This document shows positions 11,025-23,270 of a DNA stretch of 64,000 bases, one piece after another. The notes under the pieces are model-generated. The model saw only the letters and a list, made by a program, of their open reading frames with translations. It made no database searches and had not been told where the DNA came from. Made by a program: the position numbers and the translations under genes. The stretch comes from Hyalangium ruber (lineage in GTDB: Bacteria > Myxococcota > Myxococcia > Myxococcales > Myxococcaceae), in NCBI RefSeq assembly GCF_034259325.1, contig NZ_JAXIVS010000006.1:124001-188000 (forward strand), written 5' to 3'. How positions within the stretch are numbered: the stretch's first letter is position 1; every line of letters begins with the position of its first letter.

Positions 11025-13961
11025 CTAACGGTGGGAATCGACGGTCAGGCCCATCTCGCGCAGCTCCGTATGGAGCTTCAAGCGGGCCTGCGCCCAGGGC
11101 AGGGCTTCCACGCGGTAGCCCGACAGGGCCTCGAGGATCTGCTGGCGGTAGCTGGCGTTGCCTGGGTCGGCGATGACGACCACGCCGCGATCGCCATACG
11201 AGCGGATGAGCCGGCCGACGCCCTGGCGCAGGAGCAGCAGTGCCCGGGGGAGTCGGTAATGGATGAAGCCCAGGTATTCGCTGCCGCCCCGCGCCAGGTG
11301 CTCCTCGCGGGCGGCCACGAGCGGCCGGGAGGGCGGCTCCAGCGGAAGCTTGTCGATGAAGACGCACCCCACGCCGCGCCCGGGGATGTCCACGCCCTGC
11401 CAGAAGCTCTTGGTGCCCAGCAGCACCGTGCCCGCGTCCCGCTCCTGCCGGGCCGCCAGCGAGCGACCGTGTCCGCGCGTCTGGCGCATCACCTCGATGC
11501 CCAGGGGCTCCAGCCGCGTCTGCACCTCGCGGCCCACGCGCTCCATCCGCCGCGTGGAGGCGAAGAGCCCCAGCACCCGGCCGCCCATTACCTGCGCCAG
11601 CCCTGAGATGCGCATCGACGCCCACTCCACGAAGGGCTCCTCGTGGGCACGGGGTGCGTCCGTCACCAGCACCACCAGCGCCTGCTCGCGCAGCTTGAAC
11701 GGGGAGGGCGCTCGCATCAGCCGAGGCGCCGGCGTCTCGCCCCTTCCGAGCAACCCCAGTCGCTTCAAGACGAACGGGCTCTCGGGCCCCGTGCTCAGCG
11801 TCGCGGAGGTGAGCACCAGGGACCGCTTCTGGGCCGCGAAGTCCTTCGACACGTAGGCGGACACGTCGATCGGCTGTGCCCCCACGCTCCAGCGCTGTCG
11901 CTTGGGCTCGGCCGTGGCCGCGTAGCACCGGCCCTCGGCCGGCTCTCCCGCGAGCTCCTTCGCCAGGCCCGTCAGCTCCGCCAGCTCCGTGGTCGCGCCG
12001 GACAGCTCGCGCTCCAGTGTGGGCTGCCGTGCCGCCAGCTCGGGCAGTGCCTCCAATGTCCGCACCGCCAGCAGCTTGTGCAGCTCCTGGAGGGTCTCGT
12101 GTACATCCAGCAGCCCCTCGCGCACGGGCTCCCAGGCCGGGGAGGCCCGCACCGCCGCCGTCACCCGCAGCTCCGGCGCGTATGCCGCCTCGTCCGAGTC
12201 CTCGTGGGGCGTGGCCGCCGGCTCGCACAGCTGGGTAATTCGCTCGCCCAGCCCCCGAGCGGCGGACAGCAGGGCGCCGAGCGCGGACTCCACCTCGTTC
12301 ATCAACACCTTGCTCTCGGCCCGCCGCGTCCCGGCGAGCGCCCGCCGCAGCTCCGCGAAGAGGCCGCGCCGCCCATCCCGCCCGTGCAGCCGCTCGGTGA
12401 GCCGGGCGAAGGCCAGCTCCGACAGCTCCAGCGTGAGCGCCGTGGTGGCCACGTCCTCCACCTCGTGCGCCTCGTCCAGCACCAGGTGGTCCAGCTTCGG
12501 GTAGCGCGCGGGCCACGCGAAGGCCAGGGACTGGTTGATGACGAGCACGTCCGCCGCCTTCGCCTGCGCCACCGCCGAGTGGTAGTAGCAGCGGTTGAAG
12601 TGCGGACAGCGCTCGCCGAGCGTCGTCGCCGCCTCCGAGCGCACCGAAGGCACCAGCGCGCCCAGCACCGGGAAGCGCTCGCGGAACCAGTGGCTCAGCC
12701 GGTCCAGGTCTCCGTCCGGGCCTCTCCTTAGGAAGGCGCGCAGGTACGCGCGGGGCGCCCGGGCCTCGTGCCCCATGCCCGGCTCCACCCGTGTTGCCTC
12801 CAGCGCGCGGCGGCGGCACAGGTAGTTCGTCTGCCCCTTGAGCAGCGCATAGCCGAAGGCGCCGCCCGTGGCGCGGTGCAGCCGGGGCAGGTCCTTCTCG
12901 ATGAGCTGGTCCTGCAGCGTCTTGGTATGGGGCGCCACGCCCACCTTGCGCCCATTGCGCGCGGCGAACAGCGCCGCGGGAGCCAGGTACGCCAGGGACT
13001 TGCCCGTGCCGGTGCTCGCCTCCACCGCGAGCTGTCCCCCGTCCGAGAGCGTGCGCGCCACCGCCTGCGCCATCTCCAACTGGGCCAGGCGGCTGGCAAA
13101 CCCCTCCACCGCCTTCTCCAGCGCGCCTCCGGGCCCCACCAGCGCCGCCACCTCGTTCGCCTTCACCGGCTGCACGGGCGTTCCAGGCTCGGGCTCCGGA
13201 GGCGCCTTGGCCCCCCCGGCGCGCAGGCGCTCGGGACGGCCCGGCAGAAACCCTCCGGTCGTCTCCAGCTTCAGCCCCACCGGAGTCTCCCGGCACGCCT
13301 CCCACAGGCGAGAGAGCATCGCCAGCAGCGGACGCTCCTCCGAGCTCCCCTCCAGCTGCGCCTCTCCGGCCTCCACCTGGGCGAGCCGCAGGGACATGCG
13401 CGGATCCAACGTGGACAGCAGATCCGCGATGTCATCCGCGCGGCCCTCGCGGATGCACCCGTCCAGCGCGTGTACCAGCACCGCATGCGTGGCCAGACAG
13501 TCGGTCACCACGCGGTGTGCGGTGCGCGGCTGGAGCCCCGCCCACCGCAGCATCGCCTCCAGCGAGTGGCTGGACAGCTCCGGGTGCAGGTAGTGCAGCA
13601 GCTCGCACGAGTCGAGCACCGGGGCGCGGATGGGCCCCAGCAGGTCCGGCAGGAAGCCCTTCTCGAACGGCGCGTTGTGCGCCACCACCGTCCAGCCGGC
13701 GAGCGCCTCGCGCAGCTCGCGCAGGTCGCTTCCGAAGCGGGGCTTGCCCGCCAGCATCGTGTCGTCGATGCCCGTCAGCCGTCGGATGGTGATGGGCAGC
13801 GGCCGAGAGGCGGAGTACAGCCGCGCGATGCGGCGCACTTCCTGGCCGTTCTCGAAGAACAGCGCGCCCAGCTCGATGACCTCGTCCACGCGCGGGTCGA
13901 GTCCCGTCGTCTCGAGGTCGAGGAAGACATGCCGGGTGAAGAGTTCCGCCGCGCCGCCCAT
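11025..13961 (-). CDS. dinG: DinG-family helicase with N-terminal DEDDh exonuclease domain
   Basis: 978 residues. The first ~180 form a DnaQ-like 3'-5' exonuclease (FLDLETTGLD, then VVAHNAPFEKGFL). From about 300 on there is a superfamily 2 XPD/DinG helicase: Walker A VEASTGTGKSLAYLAP, DEAH box LVLDEAHEVEDV, and the late motifs GTKSFWQGVDIPG and QGVGRLIRS. This architecture matches the Firmicutes-type DinG, which has an exonuclease domain. In the Fe-S region only three cysteines stand out (NYLCRR, GERCPHFNRC), so the usual 4Fe-4S cluster may be absent or incomplete. Likely role: DNA repair or recombination on 3' or R-loop substrates. Confidence 0.9.
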   Translation of the reverse strand: MGGAAELFTRHVFLDLETTGLDPRVDEVIELGALFFENGQEVRRIARLYSASRPLPITIRRLTGIDDTMLAGKPRFGSDLRELREALAGWTVVAHNAPFEKGFLPDLLGPIRAPVLDSCELLHYLHPELSSHSLEAMLRWAGLQPRTAHRVVTDCLATHAVLVHALDGCIREGRADDIADLLSTLDPRMSLRLAQVEAGEAQLEGSSEERPLLAMLSRLWEACRETPVGLKLETTGGFLPGRPERLRAGGAKAPPEPEPGTPVQPVKANEVAALVGPGGALEKAVEGFASRLAQLEMAQAVARTLSDGGQLAVEASTGTGKSLAYLAPAALFAARNGRKVGVAPHTKTLQDQLIEKDLPRLHRATGGAFGYALLKGQTNYLCRRRALEATRVEPGMGHEARAPRAYLRAFLRRGPDGDLDRLSHWFRERFPVLGALVPSVRSEAATTLGERCPHFNRCYYHSAVAQAKAADVLVINQSLAFAWPARYPKLDHLVLDEAHEVEDVATTALTLELSELAFARLTERLHGRDGRRGLFAELRRALAGTRRAESKVLMNEVESALGALLSAARGLGERITQLCEPAATPHEDSDEAAYAPELRVTAAVRASPAWEPVREGLLDVHETLQELHKLLAVRTLEALPELAARQPTLERELSGATTELAELTGLAKELAGEPAEGRCYAATAEPKRQRWSVGAQPIDVSAYVSKDFAAQKRSLVLTSATLSTGPESPFVLKRLGLLGRGETPAPRLMRAPSPFKLREQALVVLVTDAPRAHEEPFVEWASMRISGLAQVMGGRVLGLFASTRRMERVGREVQTRLEPLGIEVMRQTRGHGRSLAARQERDAGTVLLGTKSFWQGVDIPGRGVGCVFIDKLPLEPPSRPLVAAREEHLARGGSEYLGFIHYRLPRALLLLRQGVGRLIRSYGDRGVVVIADPGNASYRQQILEALSGYRVEALPWAQARLKLHTELREMGLTVDSHR

Positions 13962-14012: not shown

Positions 14013-14426
14013 CTACTCCACCATGAACACGCCGCTGATCATCTGCCCCATGGCGCAGCCGTAGGTAAGCGTTCCCGACTTGTTCGGGGTGAACGCGATT
14101 TCCACGGGCGTGTTGAGGGGCAGCGGGGTGTTGATGTTGTACTCCTTCATCACCAGCTCATTGGCGCACGTCTGGTCCGTCTTGCGCGTCACCACCAGCT
14201 TCACCGGCTCGTCCTTGGTGAGGGTGATGGGGCTCGGCTCGTAGCCCTTCTCCGTGACGCTCAGTGAAATCTCGCGCGGACCCTCGGAGGGCTTGCGAGC
14301 CTGGGTGGCCGCGGGCGCCTGCTCGGGGGGCTTGGATTCCTTCGAGCACCCCTGCTGCGAGGAGAGCACCGCGGCGGAGGCCGCCAGGGCGAGCAGGGGC
14401 TTGATGATCTTGGAGAAGAAGCGCAT
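14013..14426 (-). CDS. Cupredoxin-domain lipoprotein
   Basis: 137 residues. The N-terminal signal ends in a lipobox-like LSSQQGC (Cys 27), followed by a Pro/Ala linker. Residues about 50-137 form a cupredoxin fold (EKGYEPSPITLTKDEPVKL) with candidate copper ligands TCANEL, and CAMGQM near the end (Cys-x-x-x-x-Met). This pattern is typical of small cupredoxins found beside copper-export or cytochrome oxidase genes, but no such genes are next to it here. The gene begins 9 bases after the stop of the upstream Sm-like gene and its Shine-Dalgarno (AGAGGA) lies in that gap, so the two look co-transcribed. Likely copper or electron carrier facing the periplasm. Confidence 0.75.
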   Translation of the reverse strand: MRFFSKIIKPLLALAASAAVLSSQQGCSKESKPPEQAPAATQARKPSEGPREISLSVTEKGYEPSPITLTKDEPVKLVVTRKTDQTCANELVMKEYNINTPLPLNTPVEIAFTPNKSGTLTYGCAMGQMISGVFMVE

Positions 14427-14435
14427 TCGGTCCTC

Positions 14436-15644
14436 TTAGGCGTCGGGAGCCGGCTCCGAGGCGAGGGCCTCGAAGCGCAGGATGGCGTGCAGGGGAACGA
14501 AGACCTCGGTGCCGGGCTCACCCAGCAGCAGGTCGAACCGCCCCGCCTTCAACAGCGGAAGCTTCAGGGTGATGCCGTTGCGCAGCACCAGCTTCACCGG
14601 CTGCCCCACCTGCGGCAGGAAGGGGCGCGGATCCGAGTACGGCCGCTTGTCGGGCTGCCGGGCGACGCTGGCGGGCTTCTGGGTGAGCTTCGCATCGCGC
14701 TCCAGCGTGGGCAGCATCTTGTCCCAGTCGGCCCGGCGCGCCAGCACCACCACCTGGAGCTTCTCCAGCCGGCTGGTGCGCTCGAAGGTGAAGGCGATGG
14801 GCTCCTCGGCGGTGAGCGTGTCCAGCACGGTGCGCTCGGCGAGCACCACCGCCATCTCCGTCTTGGTGGAGATGAGCGTGGCGAGGAAGTCGGCCACCGC
14901 GGCGTTGTCCACCTCGCCGCGGGCCTGCTTGATGGCGGCCTTGCGCTGGGTGCGCTCCTTGCGCGCCATGAACTCCGCCACCGTCATCCCACTCTGGAGC
15001 ACGCCGAAGGCATCCCCGAGCGACAGCCCCGGCGTCTGGCCCATCAGCGCGTACACTTGGTCGAAGCGCTTGGCCTCCTCGGCGTGCAGCTTGCGCCAGA
15101 TGCGGCACTTCATCTTCCCTTCGAGCTCACCCTTGGCGATGCGCGCCGGAACGTGCTCGCGCTGGGCCAGGGCGAGGATCTGCTCGGGCGTCGGCGGCGG
15201 CCGGGGCGTGCTCGAGCGGAAGGGAGGGCGTCCGCCGCCGGGGCGGGGCGCGAAGCCGGAGCCCGGAGGCCCCGAAGGCCGAGGGCCCGAGGAGGGCCGG
15301 GGACCCGAGGCGTACGGTCGAGGCGCGGGCGCCGCGGGCCGAGGTGGCAGCGCGGCGGTGCCCGTCGGGGTGCCAGGGACCGGAGCGCTGGTCACTGGCG
15401 CACTCGGCGCGGGAGCCGCCGGAGTCACGGTGCCAGGAACGGGAGCCGCCGGAGGCGGGGCGCTGGCCGCAGGAGTGGGGGGCGTCGGGGCGCTGGGAGC
15501 GGGTCTGGGCGTAGGTGCCGACGAGGGCCGGGGGGTGGGAGAGGGAGTCGCGGTCGGCGCAGAGGAGGCGCTGCCCGGCGTGGCGGCAGGGCGCCGGATG
15601 ACTTCGACTGCGGGAGCTACCCGCCGTGGCTTCCGATCGTTCAC
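14436..15644 (-). CDS. Proline-rich protein with a C-terminal Hfq/Sm-like domain
   Basis: 402 residues. Residues 1-170 are Pro/Ala/Ser/Thr/Gly-rich and probably disordered. Residues about 175-335 form an unrecognised helical domain rich in Lys and Arg (ARIAKGELEGKMKCRIWRK, FMARKERTQRKAAIKQARGE). The last ~60 residues read VGQPVKLVLRNGITLKLPLL, then FDLLLG and VFVPLHAILRFE. This matches the Hfq pattern of an Sm1 strand pair ('v-L-x-NGi-L-x') and an Sm2 'HAI' strand, which suggests an RNA-binding Sm fold. The family is inferred from motif alone. The start is GTG. It precedes the cupredoxin gene by 9 bases. Probably a cytoplasmic RNA-associated protein; no catalytic motif is seen. Confidence 0.6.
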   Translation of the reverse strand: MNDRKPRRVAPAVEVIRRPAATPGSASSAPTATPSPTPRPSSAPTPRPAPSAPTPPTPAASAPPPAAPVPGTVTPAAPAPSAPVTSAPVPGTPTGTAALPPRPAAPAPRPYASGPRPSSGPRPSGPPGSGFAPRPGGGRPPFRSSTPRPPPTPEQILALAQREHVPARIAKGELEGKMKCRIWRKLHAEEAKRFDQVYALMGQTPGLSLGDAFGVLQSGMTVAEFMARKERTQRKAAIKQARGEVDNAAVADFLATLISTKTEMAVVLAERTVLDTLTAEEPIAFTFERTSRLEKLQVVVLARRADWDKMLPTLERDAKLTQKPASVARQPDKRPYSDPRPFLPQVGQPVKLVLRNGITLKLPLLKAGRFDLLLGEPGTEVFVPLHAILRFEALASEPAPDA

Positions 15645-15664
15645 GGTTTCACGCTACCTGATAG

Positions 15665-15688
15665 CCGGGTGCAAGAGTGAGCACCCGG
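15665..15688 (-). terminator. Intergenic stem-loop, possible terminator
   Basis: CCGGGTGC, an 8-base loop, and GCACCCGG form a perfect 8-bp GC stem between the stop of the lipoprotein gene and the GTG of the Sm-like gene. There is no clear U-tract on the minus strand, so it may act as a pause or processing site rather than a strong terminator. Confidence 0.4.
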
Positions 15689-15691
15689 GCC

Positions 15692-16096
15692 TTACTGCTT
15701 TAAGGAATCTGATAGATCGATCTTCCATCCGGAGGCCTCGCGCACCATCCGGACCTCACGCGCCTGGCCCGAGGAAAGCACGCGCACCGTCGCCGCGTCG
15801 CCCTCCTCACGCACGACCGTGACCTCCGTAACATCCGCCGGGGTGGCGGAATTCACGAAGAACAGCTCGTAGGGCTCGGCCTTCAAGCTCCCTCCCGAGG
15901 CCTCTTTCAATTTCTGGGCCTGGGCATCGATGACGTCGCGGGTGGGTTGGGACAGCGCGGCATAGGCCTTCTTGTAGTCCTGCTTCCGCACGTGGGTGTG
16001 GAAGGCGGTGTAGGCCGCCACGGGCGAGTCGGTGCCACGGCAGCCGACGAAGCCGAGCAGGGCGCACACGAGGAGCAACATCGCGGACAGGCGCAT
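15692..16096 (-). CDS. Lipoprotein with a DUF4878/NTF2-like domain
   Basis: 134 residues from the ATG that begins the signal (MRLSAMLLLVCALLGFVGC, acylated Cys 19); an earlier in-frame start would put 35 odd residues before this signal. The mature part (SPVAAYTAFHTHVRKQDYKKAYAALS... ending VREASGWKIDLSD) has the NTF2-like pattern of DUF4878 lipoproteins: an alpha helix with a 'K-x-x-Y-A-A-L-S' turn and a last strand 'G-W-K-I'. Function is unknown. It lies 47 bases downstream of the diguanylate cyclase gene and upstream of the Sm-like gene. Confidence 0.75.
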   Translation of the reverse strand: MRLSAMLLLVCALLGFVGCRGTDSPVAAYTAFHTHVRKQDYKKAYAALSQPTRDVIDAQAQKLKEASGGSLKAEPYELFFVNSATPADVTEVTVVREEGDAATVRVLSSGQAREVRMVREASGWKIDLSDSLKQ

Positions 16097-16143
16097 GTCG
16101 TACGATCTAGGCCAAAGCCCGTCCGGCGCAAAGCGGCACGATG

Positions 16144-17217
16144 TCATTCTTCGTGCTGGCGAACGCGGTTTCGCCCCGCTCCCTTGGCGGCATAGAGACA
16201 CTCATCGGCCGCGTGCATCAGCTCCTCCATGGTCTGCAGGGAGGGGGAGGGGATGGAGGCCAACCCCAGGGAGGCCGTGCAGCGCACCGGGCGCTTCGTG
16301 CCATCCGAGGCGCGGTGCTCCAACTGCAGCCCTTCGATGGCCTCGCGCACCCGCTCACAGGCCCGCAGCGCGTCCTCCGGGCTCGTCTCCGGCAGCAGGG
16401 CGATGAGCTCTTCGCCGCCGTAGCGCGCCAGCAGATCCACCTCGCGCAGCCGCGCCCGCGTCACCTGGGCCACCGCTCGCAGCACTTCGTCCCCGAAGGG
16501 GTGCCCGTAGGTGTCGTTGACGCGCTTGAAGTAGTCGATGTCCAACATCACCAGCGACAGCGGCGAGCGGTAGCGCCGGGCGCGGGCGAACTCCTCCTGC
16601 AGGCGCTCCTCGAAGTAGCGGCGGTTGGACAGGCCGGTGAGCGGATCGGTGCGGCTGAGCGCCAGCAGCTCCTCGCGCTTGCGGGCCAGCTCCTTGTTGG
16701 CCCGGTCCAGCTCGCGGTTCTTCTCGATGAGCGCGTCCTGCAGCCCCTTGAGCCGCAGCATGGACTTCACCCGCGCGCCCAGCTCCAGCATGTCGAAGGG
16801 CTTGACCAGGTAGTCATCCGCTCCCAGCTCCAGGCCCTCCACCTTGCCGGCCGCCTGGCGCGCCGTCATGAGGATGACGGGGATGAAGCCGAAGCCGCCC
16901 TCGCCCGAGTTCGCCTTGACGATGCGGCACACCTCCACGCCGCCCAGGCCCGGCATCTCCACGTCCATGAGGATGAGATCCGGCCGGTGCTCGCGGATGG
17001 CCGAGAGCGCCTGCGCTCCGTCTCGCGCCTCGCGGAACGTGTAGCCGTGGGGCGCCAGGCCCTGACGCACGTGCTGCACATGCGCCGGGTCGTCATCCAC
17101 CAGCAACACGGTGCGGCCGGCGAACTCCCCGCTGGGCGCGGGACGGCGGTTGCCTTCCGGCATCTTCTTGCTGGTGCTGTCCGGTATCATCTCCACCCCA
17201 GAACCCTCCAGCAGCAC
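16144..17217 (-). CDS. Response regulator with GGDEF (diguanylate cyclase) output
   Basis: 357 residues from a GTG start; an ATG nine codons in (base 17190) is an equal candidate because it follows GGTGG closely. The receiver domain (VLLVDDD, phospho-Asp in LILMDVEMP, Lys in VKPF) is followed by a coiled coil (IEKNRELDRANKELARKREE) and a GGDEF domain from about residue 185 (TDPLTGLSNRR). The active-site loop is RYGGEEL, a functional variant of GGDEF, preceded by REVD five residues before it, which matches the RxxD inhibitory site. This predicts synthesis of cyclic di-GMP from two GTP, with product inhibition, under control of an unknown histidine kinase. No kinase is adjacent. Confidence 0.93.
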   Translation of the reverse strand: MLLEGSGVEMIPDSTSKKMPEGNRRPAPSGEFAGRTVLLVDDDPAHVQHVRQGLAPHGYTFREARDGAQALSAIREHRPDLILMDVEMPGLGGVEVCRIVKANSGEGGFGFIPVILMTARQAAGKVEGLELGADDYLVKPFDMLELGARVKSMLRLKGLQDALIEKNRELDRANKELARKREELLALSRTDPLTGLSNRRYFEERLQEEFARARRYRSPLSLVMLDIDYFKRVNDTYGHPFGDEVLRAVAQVTRARLREVDLLARYGGEELIALLPETSPEDALRACERVREAIEGLQLEHRASDGTKRPVRCTASLGLASIPSPSLQTMEELMHAADECLYAAKGAGRNRVRQHEE

Positions 17218-17278: not shown

Positions 17279-17899
17279 TCAAGCAGGCTTGATGAGCCGG
17301 CCCCGGTAGACGGGCTCGCCGCTCTGGAGGTAGCGCCGCTCTCGCGTCGAGGGCACCTCCTCCGGGTCATACGGGTGGAACACCCCGCGCCCGAGCGGAT
17401 TGACGAAGCCAGCCTCCTCCAGGACGGAGAGCATGCCCACGCCCCGGTCCTCCACGTCCGTGCGCAGATCGAACCGGCCTCCAGGCGCCAATCTGTCCAA
17501 AAGAAGACGGGCGAACTCCGGCTGGATGATGGCGCGTTTGAAGTGGGAGCGCTTCCACCAGGGGTCGGGGAACTGCAGGTGGACGACTGCCAGGGAGCCC
17601 GAGGCGAAGATGCGGGGCACGATGGCGCGCGCATCGGCCTCGATGACGCGCAGGTTCTTCAGGCCCATCTTCTCCCCGCGCGCCTGGGTGTCGCGGGCGT
17701 ACTTCTTGCGCCACTCGAAGCCCACGTAGCGGACCTCGGGGTGGCGTCGGCAGTACTCCAGGGCGTGGCCGCCAGCGCCCGAGCCGATCTCCAGCTCCAG
17801 CGGGCCGGAGAAGCCGAACTCCGCGTCCCAGTCGGGCGGGGCTTCGAGCTTCATGAACTTCAGGCCGACCGGGTCGGGCAACAGGCGGGGACGAGCCAT
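17279..17899 (-). CDS. trmB: tRNA (guanine-N7-)-methyltransferase
   Basis: 206 residues, about the normal length. It places a methyl group on G46 of tRNA using S-adenosylmethionine. The SAM-binding motif ELEIGSGAGGHALEY, the family hallmark FPDPWWKRSHFKRAI and the C-terminal tRNA-contact region (RRYLQSGEPVYRGRLI) are present. The gene is divergent from ribF with 80 bases between the starts. Expressed separately from the neighbouring response-regulator gene, 61 bases away. Confidence 0.95.
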   Translation of the reverse strand: MARPRLLPDPVGLKFMKLEAPPDWDAEFGFSGPLELEIGSGAGGHALEYCRRHPEVRYVGFEWRKKYARDTQARGEKMGLKNLRVIEADARAIVPRIFASGSLAVVHLQFPDPWWKRSHFKRAIIQPEFARLLLDRLAPGGRFDLRTDVEDRGVGMLSVLEEAGFVNPLGRGVFHPYDPEEVPSTRERRYLQSGEPVYRGRLIKPA

Positions 17900-17979
17900 G
17901 GCGTGGGCCGCGCTCTATGCACGAGGGCGCGGGGCTTGAACAAGGCAAAAGCGCGGGGTTGGGGGTATACCGGCGGGCC

Positions 17980-18915
17980 ATGAAGGTCTTCCACGCGGTG
18001 ACGGAGGCAAAAGAGGCGAAGGAGCTGGCCGGCGGAGCGATCGCGCTGGGCAACTTCGACGGAGTCCACCTGGGCCATCAAGCCCTGTTCGCCGAGGCTC
18101 GGCGCCAAGGCGTCACCGCCGCCGCGCTCACCTTCAACCCGCACCCGGGCAAGGTGCTGCAACCGCACCTGGCCCCCAAGCTCATCACCCTGCTGCCGCG
18201 CAAGCTGGAGCTCTTCGAGGCGTGCGGCCTGTCGGTCGCCATCGTCCAGCCCTTCAGCCGCGAGTACGCGCGCACCTCGGCCACCGCCTTCGAGGAGTCG
18301 CTGCTGGACGAGGTGGGCGTGCGGCACGTGGTGGTGGGCAGCGACTTCACCTACGGGGAGAAGCGCAGCGGCACCGTGGAGACGCTGCGCGAGGCCGCCT
18401 CCCGCCGAGGCGCCCAGGTCCACGTGGTGTCCCCGGTCGCCGTCGAGGGCGTGGTGGCCTCCTCCAGTCGCATCCGCGAGTACATCCTCGAGGGCCGGGT
18501 GAGCGCGGCGCACCGGATGCTCGGGCGGCCGTTTGATCTCGACGGCATGGTGGTGGCGGGCGCCGGGCGTGGGCGGGGTATCGGCTTTCCCACGGCCAAC
18601 GTGGACACGCAGAACGAGCTGCGCCCCGCGCCGGGCGTCTACGCCATCCGCGTGCGCCTCAAGGAGGAGCTCGGCGGCTCCTGGCGCCCGGCGGTGGCCA
18701 ACATCGGCGTCAAGCCCACTTTTGGAGGCTCCGAGGTCACCATCGAGGCCCACCTGCTGGACTTCAGCGGAGACCTCTACGGCAAGGAGCTGCGGGTGCA
18801 GTTCCTGGAGCGACTGCGCGCCGAGCAGCGTTTTGGCTCCGTGGCAGAGCTCGTGGGCCAGATCAAGAGGGACGTCGAGGCCGCCCGGCCGGTCATCGCC
18901 CGAGCAGACAGCTGA
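17980..18915 (+). CDS. ribF: Bifunctional riboflavin kinase/FAD synthetase
   Basis: 311 residues, the family size. The N-terminal nucleotidyl-transferase half makes FAD from FMN and ATP: GNFDGVHLGHQAL (HxGH motif) and later the SSSRIREY segment. The C-terminal half is a flavokinase that makes FMN from riboflavin: GRGIGFPTANV, ANIGVKPTF and the last helix with VEAARPVI. The ATG at the MKVFHAV start was chosen because upstream in-frame sequence is not conserved-looking. It is transcribed towards pilB with 192 bases between them and so probably is a single gene. Confidence 0.95.
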   Translation: MKVFHAVTEAKEAKELAGGAIALGNFDGVHLGHQALFAEARRQGVTAAALTFNPHPGKVLQPHLAPKLITLLPRKLELFEACGLSVAIVQPFSREYARTSATAFEESLLDEVGVRHVVVGSDFTYGEKRSGTVETLREAASRRGAQVHVVSPVAVEGVVASSSRIREYILEGRVSAAHRMLGRPFDLDGMVVAGAGRGRGIGFPTANVDTQNELRPAPGVYAIRVRLKEELGGSWRPAVANIGVKPTFGGSEVTIEAHLLDFSGDLYGKELRVQFLERLRAEQRFGSVAELVGQIKRDVEAARPVIARADS

Positions 18916-19107: not shown

Positions 19108-20808
19108 ATGTCCGGTCGACTTGGTGAACTGCTGGTCCGCGAGAACCTGATCACCGTCCAGGCTCTCCGCAAAGCGCAGGAGGAACAGCAGAAGAGTGGC
19201 GCACGCATTGGCACGGCCCTCATCAAGACGGGCGCCATCGAGGAGTCCAAGCTCACGGACTTCCTCTCCAAGCAGTACGGCGTGCCCGCGATCAACCTGA
19301 AGGACTTCGACGTCGACTCGGAGATCATCAAGCTGGTCCCGAAGGAAGTCGCCGAGAAGCACCTGGTCATCCCCGTCAACCGCGCCGGCCCCTCGCTCAT
19401 CGTGGCGATGTGTGATCCGTCCAACATCTACGCGGTGGACGACCTGAAGTTCCTCACCGGCTACAACATCGAGGCGGTGGTGGCCTCGGAGATCTCCATC
19501 CGCGAGGCCATCGAGCGCTACTACGCCGAGAAGGGTCCCTCGCTGGACGCCATCGTCGGCGAGATGGCCGATGACATCGAGGTCGCCAAGGACGAGGACG
19601 AGAACATCGAGGAGATGGCCAAGGCGGCTGACGACGCGCCGGTGGTCAAGCTGGTGAACCTCATCCTCATGGACGCCATCAAGAAGGGCGCGTCCGATAT
19701 TCACGTCGAGCCGTACGAGAAGGACTTCCGCGTCCGCTTCCGCATCGACGGCTCGCTGTACGAAGTCATGCGCCCGCCGATGAAGCTGCGCAACGCCATC
19801 ACCAGCCGTCTGAAGATCATGGCCGAGCTGGACATCTCCGAGCGGCGCCTGCCGCAGGACGGCCGCATCAAGATCAAGATGGGCGGCGGCAAGGAGATGG
19901 ACTTCCGCGTCAGCGTGTGCCCCACGCTGTTCGGCGAGAAGGTCGTTATGCGTCTGTTGGACAAGTCGAACCTCCAGCTGGACATGACCAAGCTGGGCTT
20001 CGATCCGCAGCCGCTGGCCTGGTTCAAGGAGGCCATCGAGCGTCCCTACGGCATGGTGCTGGTGACGGGCCCCACGGGTTCGGGCAAGACGACGACGCTG
20101 TACTCGGCGCTCTCCTCGCTCAACCAGATCGACACCAACATCTCCACCGCCGAGGACCCGGTCGAGTTCAACTTCGCCGGCATCAACCAGGTGCAGATGC
20201 ATGAAGACATCGGCCTGAACTTCGCCGCGGCGCTGCGCAGCTTCCTCCGTCAGGACCCCGACATCATCATGATCGGTGAGATCCGAGACTTCGAGACGGG
20301 CGAAATCGCGGTGAAGGCGGCGCTCACGGGCCACCTGGTGCTCTCCACGCTGCACACCAACGACGCCCCTGGCACGGTGAGCCGTCTGCTCAACATGGGC
20401 ATCGAGCCGTTCCTCGTGACCGCCTCGCTGAACCTGATTCTCGCCCAGCGTCTGTGCCGCCGCCTCTGCAAGGACTGCAAGCGCCCGGCGACCGAGGTGG
20501 ACGAGAAGGCCCTCATCGACGCGGGCGTGCCCCCGGAGCGGATGGGCCAGTTCACCATGTACGAGAAGGTTGGCTGCCGCGAGTGCAATGACCGCGGCTA
20601 CCGCGGCCGCGTGGCCGTGTACGAGGTCATGCCCTTCTGGGACGGCCTCAAGGAGCTGGTCATCAACGGCGCCTCCGCCGCCGAGCTCAAGCAGGAGGCC
20701 ATCCGCCTGGGCATGAGCTCTTTGCGCATGTCCGCCCTGGCCAAGATGATGGACGGCGTCACCACCCTCGACGAGGTCGTGGGCAACACCGCTCCGGACC
20801 GCTTCTAA
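19108..20808 (+). CDS. pilB: Type IV pilus extension ATPase PilB
   Basis: 566 residues, the usual PilB length. Residues 1-160 form the MshEN/N1 region found in PilB and GspE (GRLGELLVRENLITVQAL), which binds c-di-GMP in several relatives. The ATPase core has Walker A GPTGSGKTT (about 321-329), the Asp box (TAEDPVEF), Walker B (IGEIRDFET) and the His box (LSTLHTNDA). A zinc-binding tetra-Cys module is visible as CRRLCKDCK and GCREC. The protein powers pilus extension in the cytoplasm, working with PilC and PilM. It is the first gene of pilB-pilT-pilC-pilS-pilR, behind a good promoter. Confidence 0.98.
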   Translation: MSGRLGELLVRENLITVQALRKAQEEQQKSGARIGTALIKTGAIEESKLTDFLSKQYGVPAINLKDFDVDSEIIKLVPKEVAEKHLVIPVNRAGPSLIVAMCDPSNIYAVDDLKFLTGYNIEAVVASEISIREAIERYYAEKGPSLDAIVGEMADDIEVAKDEDENIEEMAKAADDAPVVKLVNLILMDAIKKGASDIHVEPYEKDFRVRFRIDGSLYEVMRPPMKLRNAITSRLKIMAELDISERRLPQDGRIKIKMGGGKEMDFRVSVCPTLFGEKVVMRLLDKSNLQLDMTKLGFDPQPLAWFKEAIERPYGMVLVTGPTGSGKTTTLYSALSSLNQIDTNISTAEDPVEFNFAGINQVQMHEDIGLNFAAALRSFLRQDPDIIMIGEIRDFETGEIAVKAALTGHLVLSTLHTNDAPGTVSRLLNMGIEPFLVTASLNLILAQRLCRRLCKDCKRPATEVDEKALIDAGVPPERMGQFTMYEKVGCRECNDRGYRGRVAVYEVMPFWDGLKELVINGASAAELKQEAIRLGMSSLRMSALAKMMDGVTTLDEVVGNTAPDRF

Positions 20809-20859
20809 GAACCTTTCCTCTCCACTTCACACCCCACCGGCTCACAAGGGATTTCTTCC

Positions 20860-21969
20860 GTGGCAAACCTGCACCAGCTTCTCAAGGCGATGGTCGAGAA
20901 GGGCGCTTCCGACCTCCACGTCACCACTGGCTCTCCGCCGCAGCTGCGCGTGGACGGCGAGCTGGTGCCATTGAAGACGGCGCCCCTCACGCCGGTGGAG
21001 ACCAAGCAGCTGTGCTACTCCATCCTCACGGATGCGCAGAAGCACAAGTTCGAGGAGGACAACGAGCTCGACCTGTCCTTCGGCGTGAAGGGCCTGTCGC
21101 GCTTCCGCGCCAACATCTTCATGCAGCGCGGCGCGGTGGCCGGCGCCTTCCGGACCATTCCCTTCAAGATCCTCACCTTCTCGGAGCTGGGTCTGCCGGC
21201 GGTGGTGGCCGAGCTCATCAAGCGGCCTCGCGGTCTCATCCTCGTCACCGGCCCCACGGGCTCGGGCAAGTCGACGACGCTGGCGTCGATGATCGACAAG
21301 ATCAACAGCGAGCGTCATGAGCACATCATGACGATCGAGGATCCGATCGAGTACCTGCACCCGCACAAGAACTGCCTGGTCAACCAGCGCGAGGTGGGCG
21401 CCGACACGCGCAACTTCAAGACGGCGCTCAAGTACATCCTCCGCCAGGACCCGGACGTGGTGCTGGTCGGTGAGCTCCGAGACCTGGAGACGATCGAAGC
21501 GGCGCTCACCATCGCCGAGACGGGCCACACCTGCTACGCCACGCTGCACACCAACAGCGCGGTGCAGACCATCAACCGCGTGCTGGACGTGTTCCCGCCG
21601 TACCAGCAGCCTCAGGTCCGCGCTCAGCTCTCCTTCGTGCTCGAGGGCGTGATGAGCCAGTCGCTGGTGGCCAAGGCAGGCGGTCCGGGCCGCGTGCTGG
21701 CGCTGGAGGTCATGGTGCCCACGCCCGCTATCCGCAACCTGATCCGTGAGGACAAGGTCCACCAGGTCTACTCCTCGATGCAGGTGGGTCAGGCCAAGTA
21801 CGGCATGCAGACCTTCAATCAGGCCCTGGCGGCGCTGCTCCAGCGCCGGATCATCAGCCAGGAAGAGGCCCTCGGCCGCTCCAGCGATCCCGAGGAGTTG
21901 CGCAACATCCTCGCGGGCGGTTCTCCGGGTCTTCAGCAGCGGCCAGGCGGCGGAGCCCCCGGCCGTTAG
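20860..21969 (+). CDS. pilT: Type IV pilus retraction ATPase PilT
   Basis: 369 residues, starting with GTG at MANLHQLLKAM; the N-terminus is typical. Walker A GPTGSGKSTT lies at about 131-140, followed by the Asp box (IEDPIEYLH), Walker B (VGELRDLET) and the His box (ATLHTNSA). The AIRNLIRE motif conserved in PilT is seen as PTPAIRNLIRE. PilT disassembles pilin at the base and pulls the pilus back, which drives social motility. It lacks the PilB zinc module and long N-domain, which separates the two. It lies 51 bases after pilB. Confidence 0.98.
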   Translation: MANLHQLLKAMVEKGASDLHVTTGSPPQLRVDGELVPLKTAPLTPVETKQLCYSILTDAQKHKFEEDNELDLSFGVKGLSRFRANIFMQRGAVAGAFRTIPFKILTFSELGLPAVVAELIKRPRGLILVTGPTGSGKSTTLASMIDKINSERHEHIMTIEDPIEYLHPHKNCLVNQREVGADTRNFKTALKYILRQDPDVVLVGELRDLETIEAALTIAETGHTCYATLHTNSAVQTINRVLDVFPPYQQPQVRAQLSFVLEGVMSQSLVAKAGGPGRVLALEVMVPTPAIRNLIREDKVHQVYSSMQVGQAKYGMQTFNQALAALLQRRIISQEEALGRSSDPEELRNILAGGSPGLQQRPGGGAPGR

Positions 21970-22025
21970 TTATGGGTTTTTCAGACGCGCGGTAGACTCA
22001 CGGTTCCCCGCGGAGGTCCAGAGTT

Positions 22026-23270
22026 ATGGCAGCACCTCAAATGCAGAAAACGGCTTCGGCCAAGAAGACGACCCAGTGGCTCTGGGAGGCGAAGAGCAAG
22101 AGCGGGGAGCTGAAGAAGGGCGAGATGGAGGCGGGCGACGCCGAGGCGGTCAACGCGCGCCTCAAGTCGCTGGGCCTCAGCCCCGTCAAGGTCAAGAAGA
22201 AGCCGATGGAGTTCAACCTCCCGGCGCTCTCCGGTGGGGTGACCGGCAAGGACATCCTGATCTTCACGCGTCAGTTCGCGACGATGATCGACGCGGGTCT
22301 TCCCCTGGTGCAGTGCCTCGAGATTCTCGGCAGCCAGATGGACAACCCGGCCTTCCGCAAGGTCATCTTCGCCATCAAGGGCAAGGTCGAGCAGGGCTCC
22401 ACCTTCGCCGACGCGCTGAAGGACCACCCCAAGGTCTTCGACGAGCTGTTCGTGCAGCTGTGCGCCGCGGGCGAGGTGGGCGGTATCCTCGATACCATTC
22501 TCAACCGTCTGGCGACCTACCGTGAGAAGGCGGAGAAGCTCAAGCGCAAGGTCAAGAGCGCGATGACCTATCCGGTCATCGTTATCTGCGTGGCCATCGG
22601 CGTGACGGCGCTGCTGATGCTCAAGGTGACGCCGGTGTTCGCCAAGATGTTCGGTGACTTCGGCTCGGCGCTGCCGGCTCCCACCCAGTTCGTGGTGGAC
22701 ATGTCCGAGTGGCTGCAGAAGTACATCATCCACCTGGTGGTCGGCATCGCCAGCTTCGTCTTCGCCATCGTCACCACGTACCGCAACCCGAAGGGCCGCA
22801 AGCTGCTGGACAAGCTGATGCTCAAGGCGCCGGGGTTCGGCCCCGTCATCCGCAAGGTGGCCGTGGCGCGCTTCACCCGCACGCTGGGCACGATGATCGC
22901 CTCGGGCGTTCCCATCCTCGACGCGCTGGACGTGACGGCGAAGACGGCCGGTAACCGCACGGTGGAAGAGGCCATCTACTACGTCCGTGGCAAGATCGCC
23001 GAGGGTAAGAACATCGCTGGTCCGCTGCTTGAGACCAACGTCTTCCCGTCGATGGTGGTGCAGATGATCGGCGTCGGTGAGGCGACGGGCGCCATGGACG
23101 CGATGCTCAACAAGATCGCCGACTTCTACGACGACGAAGTGGACGCTGCCGTCGCTGGCCTCACGGCGATGATCGAGCCGCTGCTCATGGTGTTCCTGGG
23201 CGGCGTGGTCGGTGGCTTCCTCATCGCGATGTACCTGCCCATCTTCTCGATCGCCGGTGCCATCAAGTAG
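22026..23270 (+). CDS. pilC: Type IV pilus inner-membrane platform protein PilC
   Basis: 414 residues with two GspF repeats, each ending in membrane helices. The first repeat has FTRQFATMIDAGLPLVQCL, the second FTRTLGTMIASGVPILDAL, and both carry the conserved GE motifs (AAGEVGGIL and IGVGEATGAM). Membrane segments are at about 178-200, 229-251 and 379-402, the last near the C-terminus (MVFLGGVVGGFLIAMYLP). PilC couples the ATPases to pilin insertion. A GGAGG Shine-Dalgarno at 22012-22016 precedes the ATG by 9 bases. Confidence 0.97.
   Translation: MAAPQMQKTASAKKTTQWLWEAKSKSGELKKGEMEAGDAEAVNARLKSLGLSPVKVKKKPMEFNLPALSGGVTGKDILIFTRQFATMIDAGLPLVQCLEILGSQMDNPAFRKVIFAIKGKVEQGSTFADALKDHPKVFDELFVQLCAAGEVGGILDTILNRLATYREKAEKLKRKVKSAMTYPVIVICVAIGVTALLMLKVTPVFAKMFGDFGSALPAPTQFVVDMSEWLQKYIIHLVVGIASFVFAIVTTYRNPKGRKLLDKLMLKAPGFGPVIRKVAVARFTRTLGTMIASGVPILDALDVTAKTAGNRTVEEAIYYVRGKIAEGKNIAGPLLETNVFPSMVVQMIGVGEATGAMDAMLNKIADFYDDEVDAAVAGLTAMIEPLLMVFLGGVVGGFLIAMYLPIFSIAGAIK

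Follow-up and report, generated by a model that had tools for sequence, protein, structure and literature searches.

A predicted tandem Hfq-like protein, conserved in the Myxococcaceae, as a candidate RNA chaperone

The stretch of DNA analysed here (the window) comprises 64,000 nucleotides from Hyalangium ruber, and at positions 14436-15644 of its reverse strand lies a gene with a GTG start codon that encodes a protein of 402 amino acids, hereafter the tandem protein. The gene is shown computationally by its open reading frame, its conservation and its substitution pattern. Protein identity ranges from 47 to 88% across 51 sequences, and within the conserved part of the protein (residues 153-402, a core of 250 residues) the third codon positions are the most variable relative to the relatives, with 27, 12 and 61 differences at positions 1, 2 and 3 in the comparison with Hyalangium. 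A long open reading frame on the opposite strand (14482-15822, +) is interpreted as a shadow of the GC-rich codon structure.

Immediately downstream, 10 bases from the stop codon, is the gene for a cupredoxin-like lipoprotein (14013-14426, -), beyond which lies the gene for a DinG-like helicase that bears an RNase T exonuclease domain at its N-terminus (11025-13961, -); the latter is kept downstream in the crown genera. Upstream lie genes for a small lipoprotein-like protein without a Pfam family (15692-16201, -), a response regulator with a GGDEF domain (16144-17217, -), which is probably the orthologue of MXAN_5791, and a TrmB-like tRNA methyltransferase (17279-17899, -). This order, from trmB through the GGDEF response regulator, the lipoprotein, the tandem gene and the cupredoxin to the dinG-like helicase, is conserved. 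Of the upstream neighbours, trmB is the one retained in the deepest lineages, and it adjoins the tandem gene even in reduced genomes. Divergent from this run are ribF (17917-18915), which lies between trmB and pilB, and the pilB, pilT, pilC cluster (19108-23270, +), which may continue into further type IV pilus genes. The first of these, pilB (19108-20808, +), encodes the type IV pilus extension ATPase and lies approximately 3.5 kb from the start of the tandem gene; it is found at about 3.5-4.8 kb, in divergent orientation, in most relatives whose contig is long enough, the most divergent ones included.

The tandem protein opens with a motif at residues 1-19, VNDRKPRRVAPAVEVIRRP (15588-15644, -), which was compared by eye among 21 open reading frames. 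Its core, [VI][EQ]VIR[RK], can be made out in nearly every relative inspected, including those from two reduced genomes (L042 and L043), and is kept even where the remainder of the arm has changed past alignment. Since this peptide is conserved while the arm behind it is not, a docking site is suggested, and the peptide is likely to be a docking motif for a partner protein, an inference drawn from sequence alone. The arm itself (residues 20-152; 15189-15587, -) is disordered, rich in proline and alanine, and of differing length among relatives; residues 1-152 together carry a net charge of +14.

Behind the arm is a basic helical domain (residues 153-247; 14904-15188, -) with a pI of 9.7 and invariant arginine, lysine, tryptophan and histidine residues. 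It is the most conserved part of the protein, with a mean column identity of 75%, compared with 69% for the second and 64% for the first of the two barrels that follow. When this domain was modelled alone, no convincing fold match was obtained (best Foldseek E-value 0.4, best VIA Z-score 3.5), a result that does not establish a new fold. The first Sm/Hfq-like barrel, D1 (residues 248-303; 14736-14903, -), consists of a helix and five strands by AlphaFold2 and VIA. The alignment then reveals a basic linker with the consensus QKPxxVARQPxxRPxSDPR (residues 322-340; 14625-14681, -), which is arginine-rich just ahead of the second barrel and in which Arg329, Arg334 and Arg340 are invariant. The second barrel, D2 (residues 338-393; 14466-14633, -), was delineated by profile searches, AlphaFold2 and Foldseek. 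In the alignment it carries an Sm1 signature, LRNG (residues 354-357; 14574-14585, -), whose invariant last two residues correspond to Asn28-Gly29 of E. coli Hfq, and an Sm2 signature, PLHA (residues 384-387; 14484-14495, -), in the place of the Tyr-Lys-His-Ala of Hfq.

Scans of the single protein and of all 51 relatives against Pfam and NCBIfam returned no usable family. The tandem protein did not match the Hfq family PF17209, whose curated cut-off was not met, nor did it match PF04352 (ProQ) or PF01423 (LSm). The NCBIfam Hfq model TIGR02383 gave only a weak match (E 0.052) in one of the 51 members, below its curated cut-off, and with no Pfam match beside it, standard annotation overlooks the protein. 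A match to Cas5a, also in a single member of the 51 (E 4e-4), was dismissed as chance.

Profile searches nonetheless connect the protein to Hfq. A core profile built from the 51 sequences was run with hmmsearch against 177,635 PDB sequences, and among the 11 matches with an E-value below 10 the best ten were all Hfq. With D2 alone, 17 of 18 matches were Hfq, the top one being MJ1435 (E 4.7e-4). As these matches belong to one family and are not mutually independent, weight is placed on the best E-value and on the near absence of other families. Using hhalign against nine Hfq sequences, of which seven were database records and two (E. coli and B. subtilis) were entered by hand, D2 aligned with P 3e-5 and 30% identity over 53 columns, compared with P 0.1 over 9 columns for the N-terminal domain used as a control. 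D1 alone retrieved no Hfq match among the PDB sequences, and its hhalign comparison with Hfq was not significant (P 0.007), with the helix and first strand in gapless register up to strand 1 (D-x-F-[LI]-x-x-L). Furthermore, hhalign found no similarity between D1 and D2, and the origin of the tandem by duplication is therefore unproven by sequence. Computation thus shows D2 to be akin to Hfq by both sequence and fold, and D1 by fold.

The AlphaFold2 model of the core (mean pLDDT 89, pTM 0.74, with pLDDT exceeding 90 in most of both barrels) places two Sm barrels in tandem, both with the order helix-beta1-beta2-beta3-beta4-(3-residue turn)-beta5. In this predicted model the Sm pattern occupies core residues 96-151 (D1, protein residues 248-303) and 188-241 (D2). 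Foldseek placed Hfq at nearly all top ranks with a probability of 1.00, and for D1 all 50 rows returned by VIA were Hfq entries, with Z-scores of 8.8-9.8 and 57-65 residues aligned. The best of these was Synechocystis Hfq (3hfo; Z 9.8, 61 residues, rmsd 2.3 A), although it was tied with other Hfq proteins; on 3hfn, 58 residues of D1 superposed at 1.3 A. Two Hfq-like folds are thus shown at the level of the predicted model, and a tandem Hfq-like fold is considered very likely.

An earlier note on this DNA had claimed an Hfq/Sm-like domain at the C-terminus of a proline-rich protein, a claim that held in the PDB profiles, in hhalign and in AlphaFold2. It had pointed to an Sm1 string and an Sm2-like strand, both of which are present, in D2 (VKLVLRNGITLK at residues 350-361 and PLHAILRF at residues 384-391), and the outcome it had named as refuting, a barrel not of the Sm type, did not materialise, as an Sm barrel is predicted, with Hfq as its best structural matches. 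Its "basic helical domain" held only in part: the helical domain spans about 95 residues, and after it comes a second Hfq-like barrel, at residues of about 248-303, which the note had overlooked.

Residue conservation was scored over 52 sequences. D1 was mapped onto Hfq by secondary structure, and this mapping may be off by one away from the turn. With the turn that joins strands 4 and 5 as the anchor of the alignment, Tyr55-Lys56-His57-Ala58 of Hfq corresponds to Glu294-Lys295-Leu296-Gln297 in D1 and to Pro384-Leu385-His386-Ala387 in D2. Lys295, at the Hfq Lys56 position, is invariant in all 52 sequences, as are, in D2, Pro384 and His386, the latter at the His57 position, while Ala387 is found in 51 of the 52. 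Also invariant in D2 are Asp338 (Hfq Asp9) and Asn356-Gly357 (Asn28-Gly29); Phe342-Leu343, the equivalent of Phe11-Leu12, is retained, and residue 370, at the Phe42 position, is phenylalanine or tyrosine. With respect to the Sm1 Asn-Gly and Sm2 Tyr-Lys-His signatures, D2 therefore possesses Asn-Gly and His-Ala but has Pro-Leu in place of Tyr-Lys, and D1 possesses only the lysine. Of the two Hfq-like domains, only D2 still carries the Hfq signature, and this in partial form.

The residues that contact RNA in Hfq are altered in several respects. The arginine patch (R16, R17 and R19 of E. coli Hfq) is deleted in D2 and reduced in D1 to a single lysine at position 19, Tyr55 is replaced, and each domain has lost one of the Lys56/His57 pair. 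Because the Tyr55 position is occupied by glutamate in D1 and by proline in D2, the contacts between subunits must differ from those of Hfq. The curated cut-off of PF17209 and the arginine patch were both tested and both unmet, and for this reason the tandem protein is not filed as a member of that family; rather, it is regarded as a tandem, divergent member of a broader Hfq branch within the Sm superfamily.

Hfq (PF17209, TIGR02383) is a bacterial RNA chaperone that forms a homohexamer with one Sm domain per chain. The tandem protein resembles it in the Sm fold of both domains, in the D2 equivalents of Asp9, Phe11, Leu12, Asn28-Gly29, Phe42 and His57-Ala58, and in the D1 equivalent of Lys56. 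It differs in having two domains within a chain of 402 amino acids, an additional helical domain and arm, no arginine patch, a replaced Tyr55, and a sequence below detection by the Pfam model. With two domains per chain, it does not fit the pattern of a homohexameric ring of single-domain chains. MJ1435, the archaeal Hfq-like protein of Methanocaldococcus jannaschii (2qtx, 5dy9) that is the best PDB match of D2, shares the LRNG Sm1 motif but is a single domain of 71 residues. The Hfq proteins of cyanobacteria (Synechocystis 3hfo, Anabaena 3hfn) are also divergent, and provide the top VIA row for D1, yet they too are single-domain proteins. Double-length Hfq proteins with two Hfq sequences per chain were reportedly described in an early survey of Hfq by Sun and colleagues (2002). 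Their domains are likewise in tandem, but their halves are reported to be ordinary Hfq without extra domains, whereas those of the tandem protein have diverged beyond mutual recognition. No paper on a tandem or double Hfq was found in the open-access literature searched.

When 84,980 bacterial and archaeal genomes were scanned with the single-sequence core, a search that detects close relatives only, 44 loci emerged, essentially all labelled as myxobacteria. The locus BNCN01000001.1 (L023) is labelled Comamonas sp. KCTC 72670, although synteny places its DNA in the Myxococcaceae, as does the protein identity of several genes, mostly 75-92%; either the record's name or its assembly seems to be in error. 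When 195 Myxococcota genomes were searched by profile, the tandem protein turned up in 93, all of them Myxococcaceae, and in no Myxococcota outside this family. These 93 represent all but three of the 96 genomes of the family; of the three without a match, two are incomplete and one is fragmented. Conservation across the family is thereby shown, and it extends to reduced genomes of 2.1-2.7 Mb, in which the gene is retained. No relatives were found in viral contigs. In two other genomes the D1-linker-D2 unit recurs behind a different N-terminal part (L106, G141:C241, and L107, G152:C502), suggesting that the pair with its linker is a working module. The N-terminal part of the proteins of this second type has no Pfam family, and remnants at four further loci (L105, L108, L109 and L110) resemble decaying copies.

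Hfq forms a ring and assists small regulatory RNAs in finding their targets. The development of myxobacteria is controlled by small RNAs such as Pxr, which blocks fruiting in Myxococcus. Myxobacteria have been stated to lack hfq, and the small RNA Pxr to need another chaperone (PMC5568312, PMC5684412), and the authors of the Pxr work have called for such an alternative (PMC5568312, PMC5684412). The earlier note's statement that Myxococcus lacks a classical hfq therefore holds in print, and the canonical hfq elsewhere in the genome that would have counted against its proposal was found neither in the source genome nor in the 194 other Myxococcota. The absence of any other Hfq is thus shown by a PF17209 search of the 195 genomes, the same search being positive in 5 of 14 control genomes. 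ProQ (PF04352) and LSM (PF01423) were also not detected in the source genome, the latter search being positive in 10 of the 14 controls. The proposal in that note of a divergent RNA chaperone and candidate small RNA partner is supported as a reading, while the chaperone role remains an inference.

The pxr gene was located by means of a primer sequence from PMC5684412, and in the source genome it lies at G000:C3:474492 (L149, G000:C3:474200-474800), with a terminator hairpin ending CTTCTTTT. Allowing up to one mismatch, the pxr tag was found in five crown genera only; it was not found in the reduced 2.1-2.7 Mb genomes that encode the tandem protein, although a diverged pxr could escape the search. 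The idea that Pxr is the only client was rejected, given that the tandem protein is family-wide and the pxr tag is confined to the five crown genera. As the distribution of the tandem protein is broader than that of Pxr, a general role is probable.

The interpretation we favour, with a probability of roughly 0.62, is that the tandem protein is a divergent, two-Sm-domain relative of Hfq that acts as an RNA-binding protein and general chaperone; RNA binding, ring formation and chaperone function are all inferred. Under this reading, D1 and D2 sit in one chain, joined by the conserved basic linker and placed behind the basic helical domain and the disordered arm, and three chains would form a closed ring in which six Sm folds, D1 and D2 by turns, take the place of the Hfq homohexamer. 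The proximal pore would be lined by three Lys295 residues from D1 and three His386 residues from D2, an alternation of lysine and histidine that is inferred because both residues are invariant and occupy the Lys56 and His57 positions of Hfq. U-rich 3' ends of RNA may be bound at this pore as in Hfq, for which no RNA-binding evidence exists, and the basic linker and N-terminal domain may substitute for the lost arginine rim. The protein would then serve in the Myxococcaceae as a general RNA chaperone and hub, including for U-tailed small RNAs such as Pxr.

The components of this reading do not stand equally firm. RNA binding, in the absence of direct evidence an inference, is the part towards which we lean; the trimeric pseudo-hexamer, likewise inferred, could as easily prove wrong as right; and the inferred identification of the protein as the Pxr partner is tentative, the balance tipping against it. 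The reading is supported by the retention of trmB, a tRNA modification gene, upstream in the deepest lineages, by the core pI of 9.5, and by the presence in the source genome of Pxr with its terminator hairpin. Conversely, the missing arginine patch, the replacement of Tyr55 and the lack of a significant Hfq sequence match for D1 count against it. A bolder and less likely version is also possible, in which Hfq was lost and a fused trimer ring with an alternating Lys/His pore, equipped with a newly acquired helical domain for RNA binding and an arm for docking, would be the global small RNA chaperone of the Myxococcaceae and would stabilise Pxr.

A first alternative is that the tandem protein is no RNA chaperone but an adaptor of the type IV pilus motor, a partner of PilB, as in cyanobacteria, where Hfq binds PilB, is required for pilus assembly and is thought not to bind RNA (PMC12288463). 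The conserved divergent pilB neighbour at about 3.5-4.8 kb, which recalls this cyanobacterial interaction, speaks for it, as do the top VIA rank of Synechocystis Hfq, despite its tie with other Hfq proteins, and the alteration of several RNA-contact residues. However, the contact for cyanobacterial Hfq is a C-terminal extension of PilB (PMC12288463), and this docking extension is absent here, the PilB of 566 amino acids being matched by its family model over positions 2-562 of 564. Moreover, trmB and ribF lie between the two genes and are equally conserved, such that the link is not specific to pilB, and the core is strongly basic. This alternative is unlikely, albeit not excluded.

A second alternative, likewise improbable but not ruled out, is that the tandem protein binds RNA as part of the machinery of translation or of ribosomes and tRNA, for instance as a factor for assembly or modification whose expression is shared with TrmB, rather than as a chaperone of small RNAs. 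In its favour are the trmB neighbour kept in the deepest lineages, the N-terminal domain, rather than the barrels, being the most conserved part, and retention of the protein in the 2.1-2.7 Mb genomes in which the pxr tag was not found. Yet the N-terminal domain matched no ribosome or tRNA factor by fold or by family, and the protein is restricted to one bacterial family. Finally, while D1 lacks significant sequence similarity to Hfq and SH3-like barrels are common, it is very unlikely that the barrels are a generic SH3-like fold that resembles Hfq by chance without descent from it, as D2 retrieves almost only Hfq among PDB sequences, Hfq fills all of the top 50 structural rows, and the equivalents of Asn-Gly, His-Ala, Asp9, Phe11, Leu12 and Phe42 are correctly placed.

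Should the reading of a two-Sm-domain Hfq relative be true, it would describe a bacterial Sm ring made from fused, diverged halves, in parallel to the passage from homomeric to heteromeric Sm rings in eukaryotes. It also carries the warning that calls of "no Hfq" from standard models can be wrong, and it names, for the missing chaperone of myxobacterial small RNAs, a single conserved gene as a candidate accessible to deletion and tagging in a laboratory strain. In M. xanthus this gene would be about MXAN_5793, a designation that was not named as such in the open-access literature searched and that is inferred from gene order next to MXAN_5791, the gene earlier deleted under that name, whose size the GGDEF neighbour matches.
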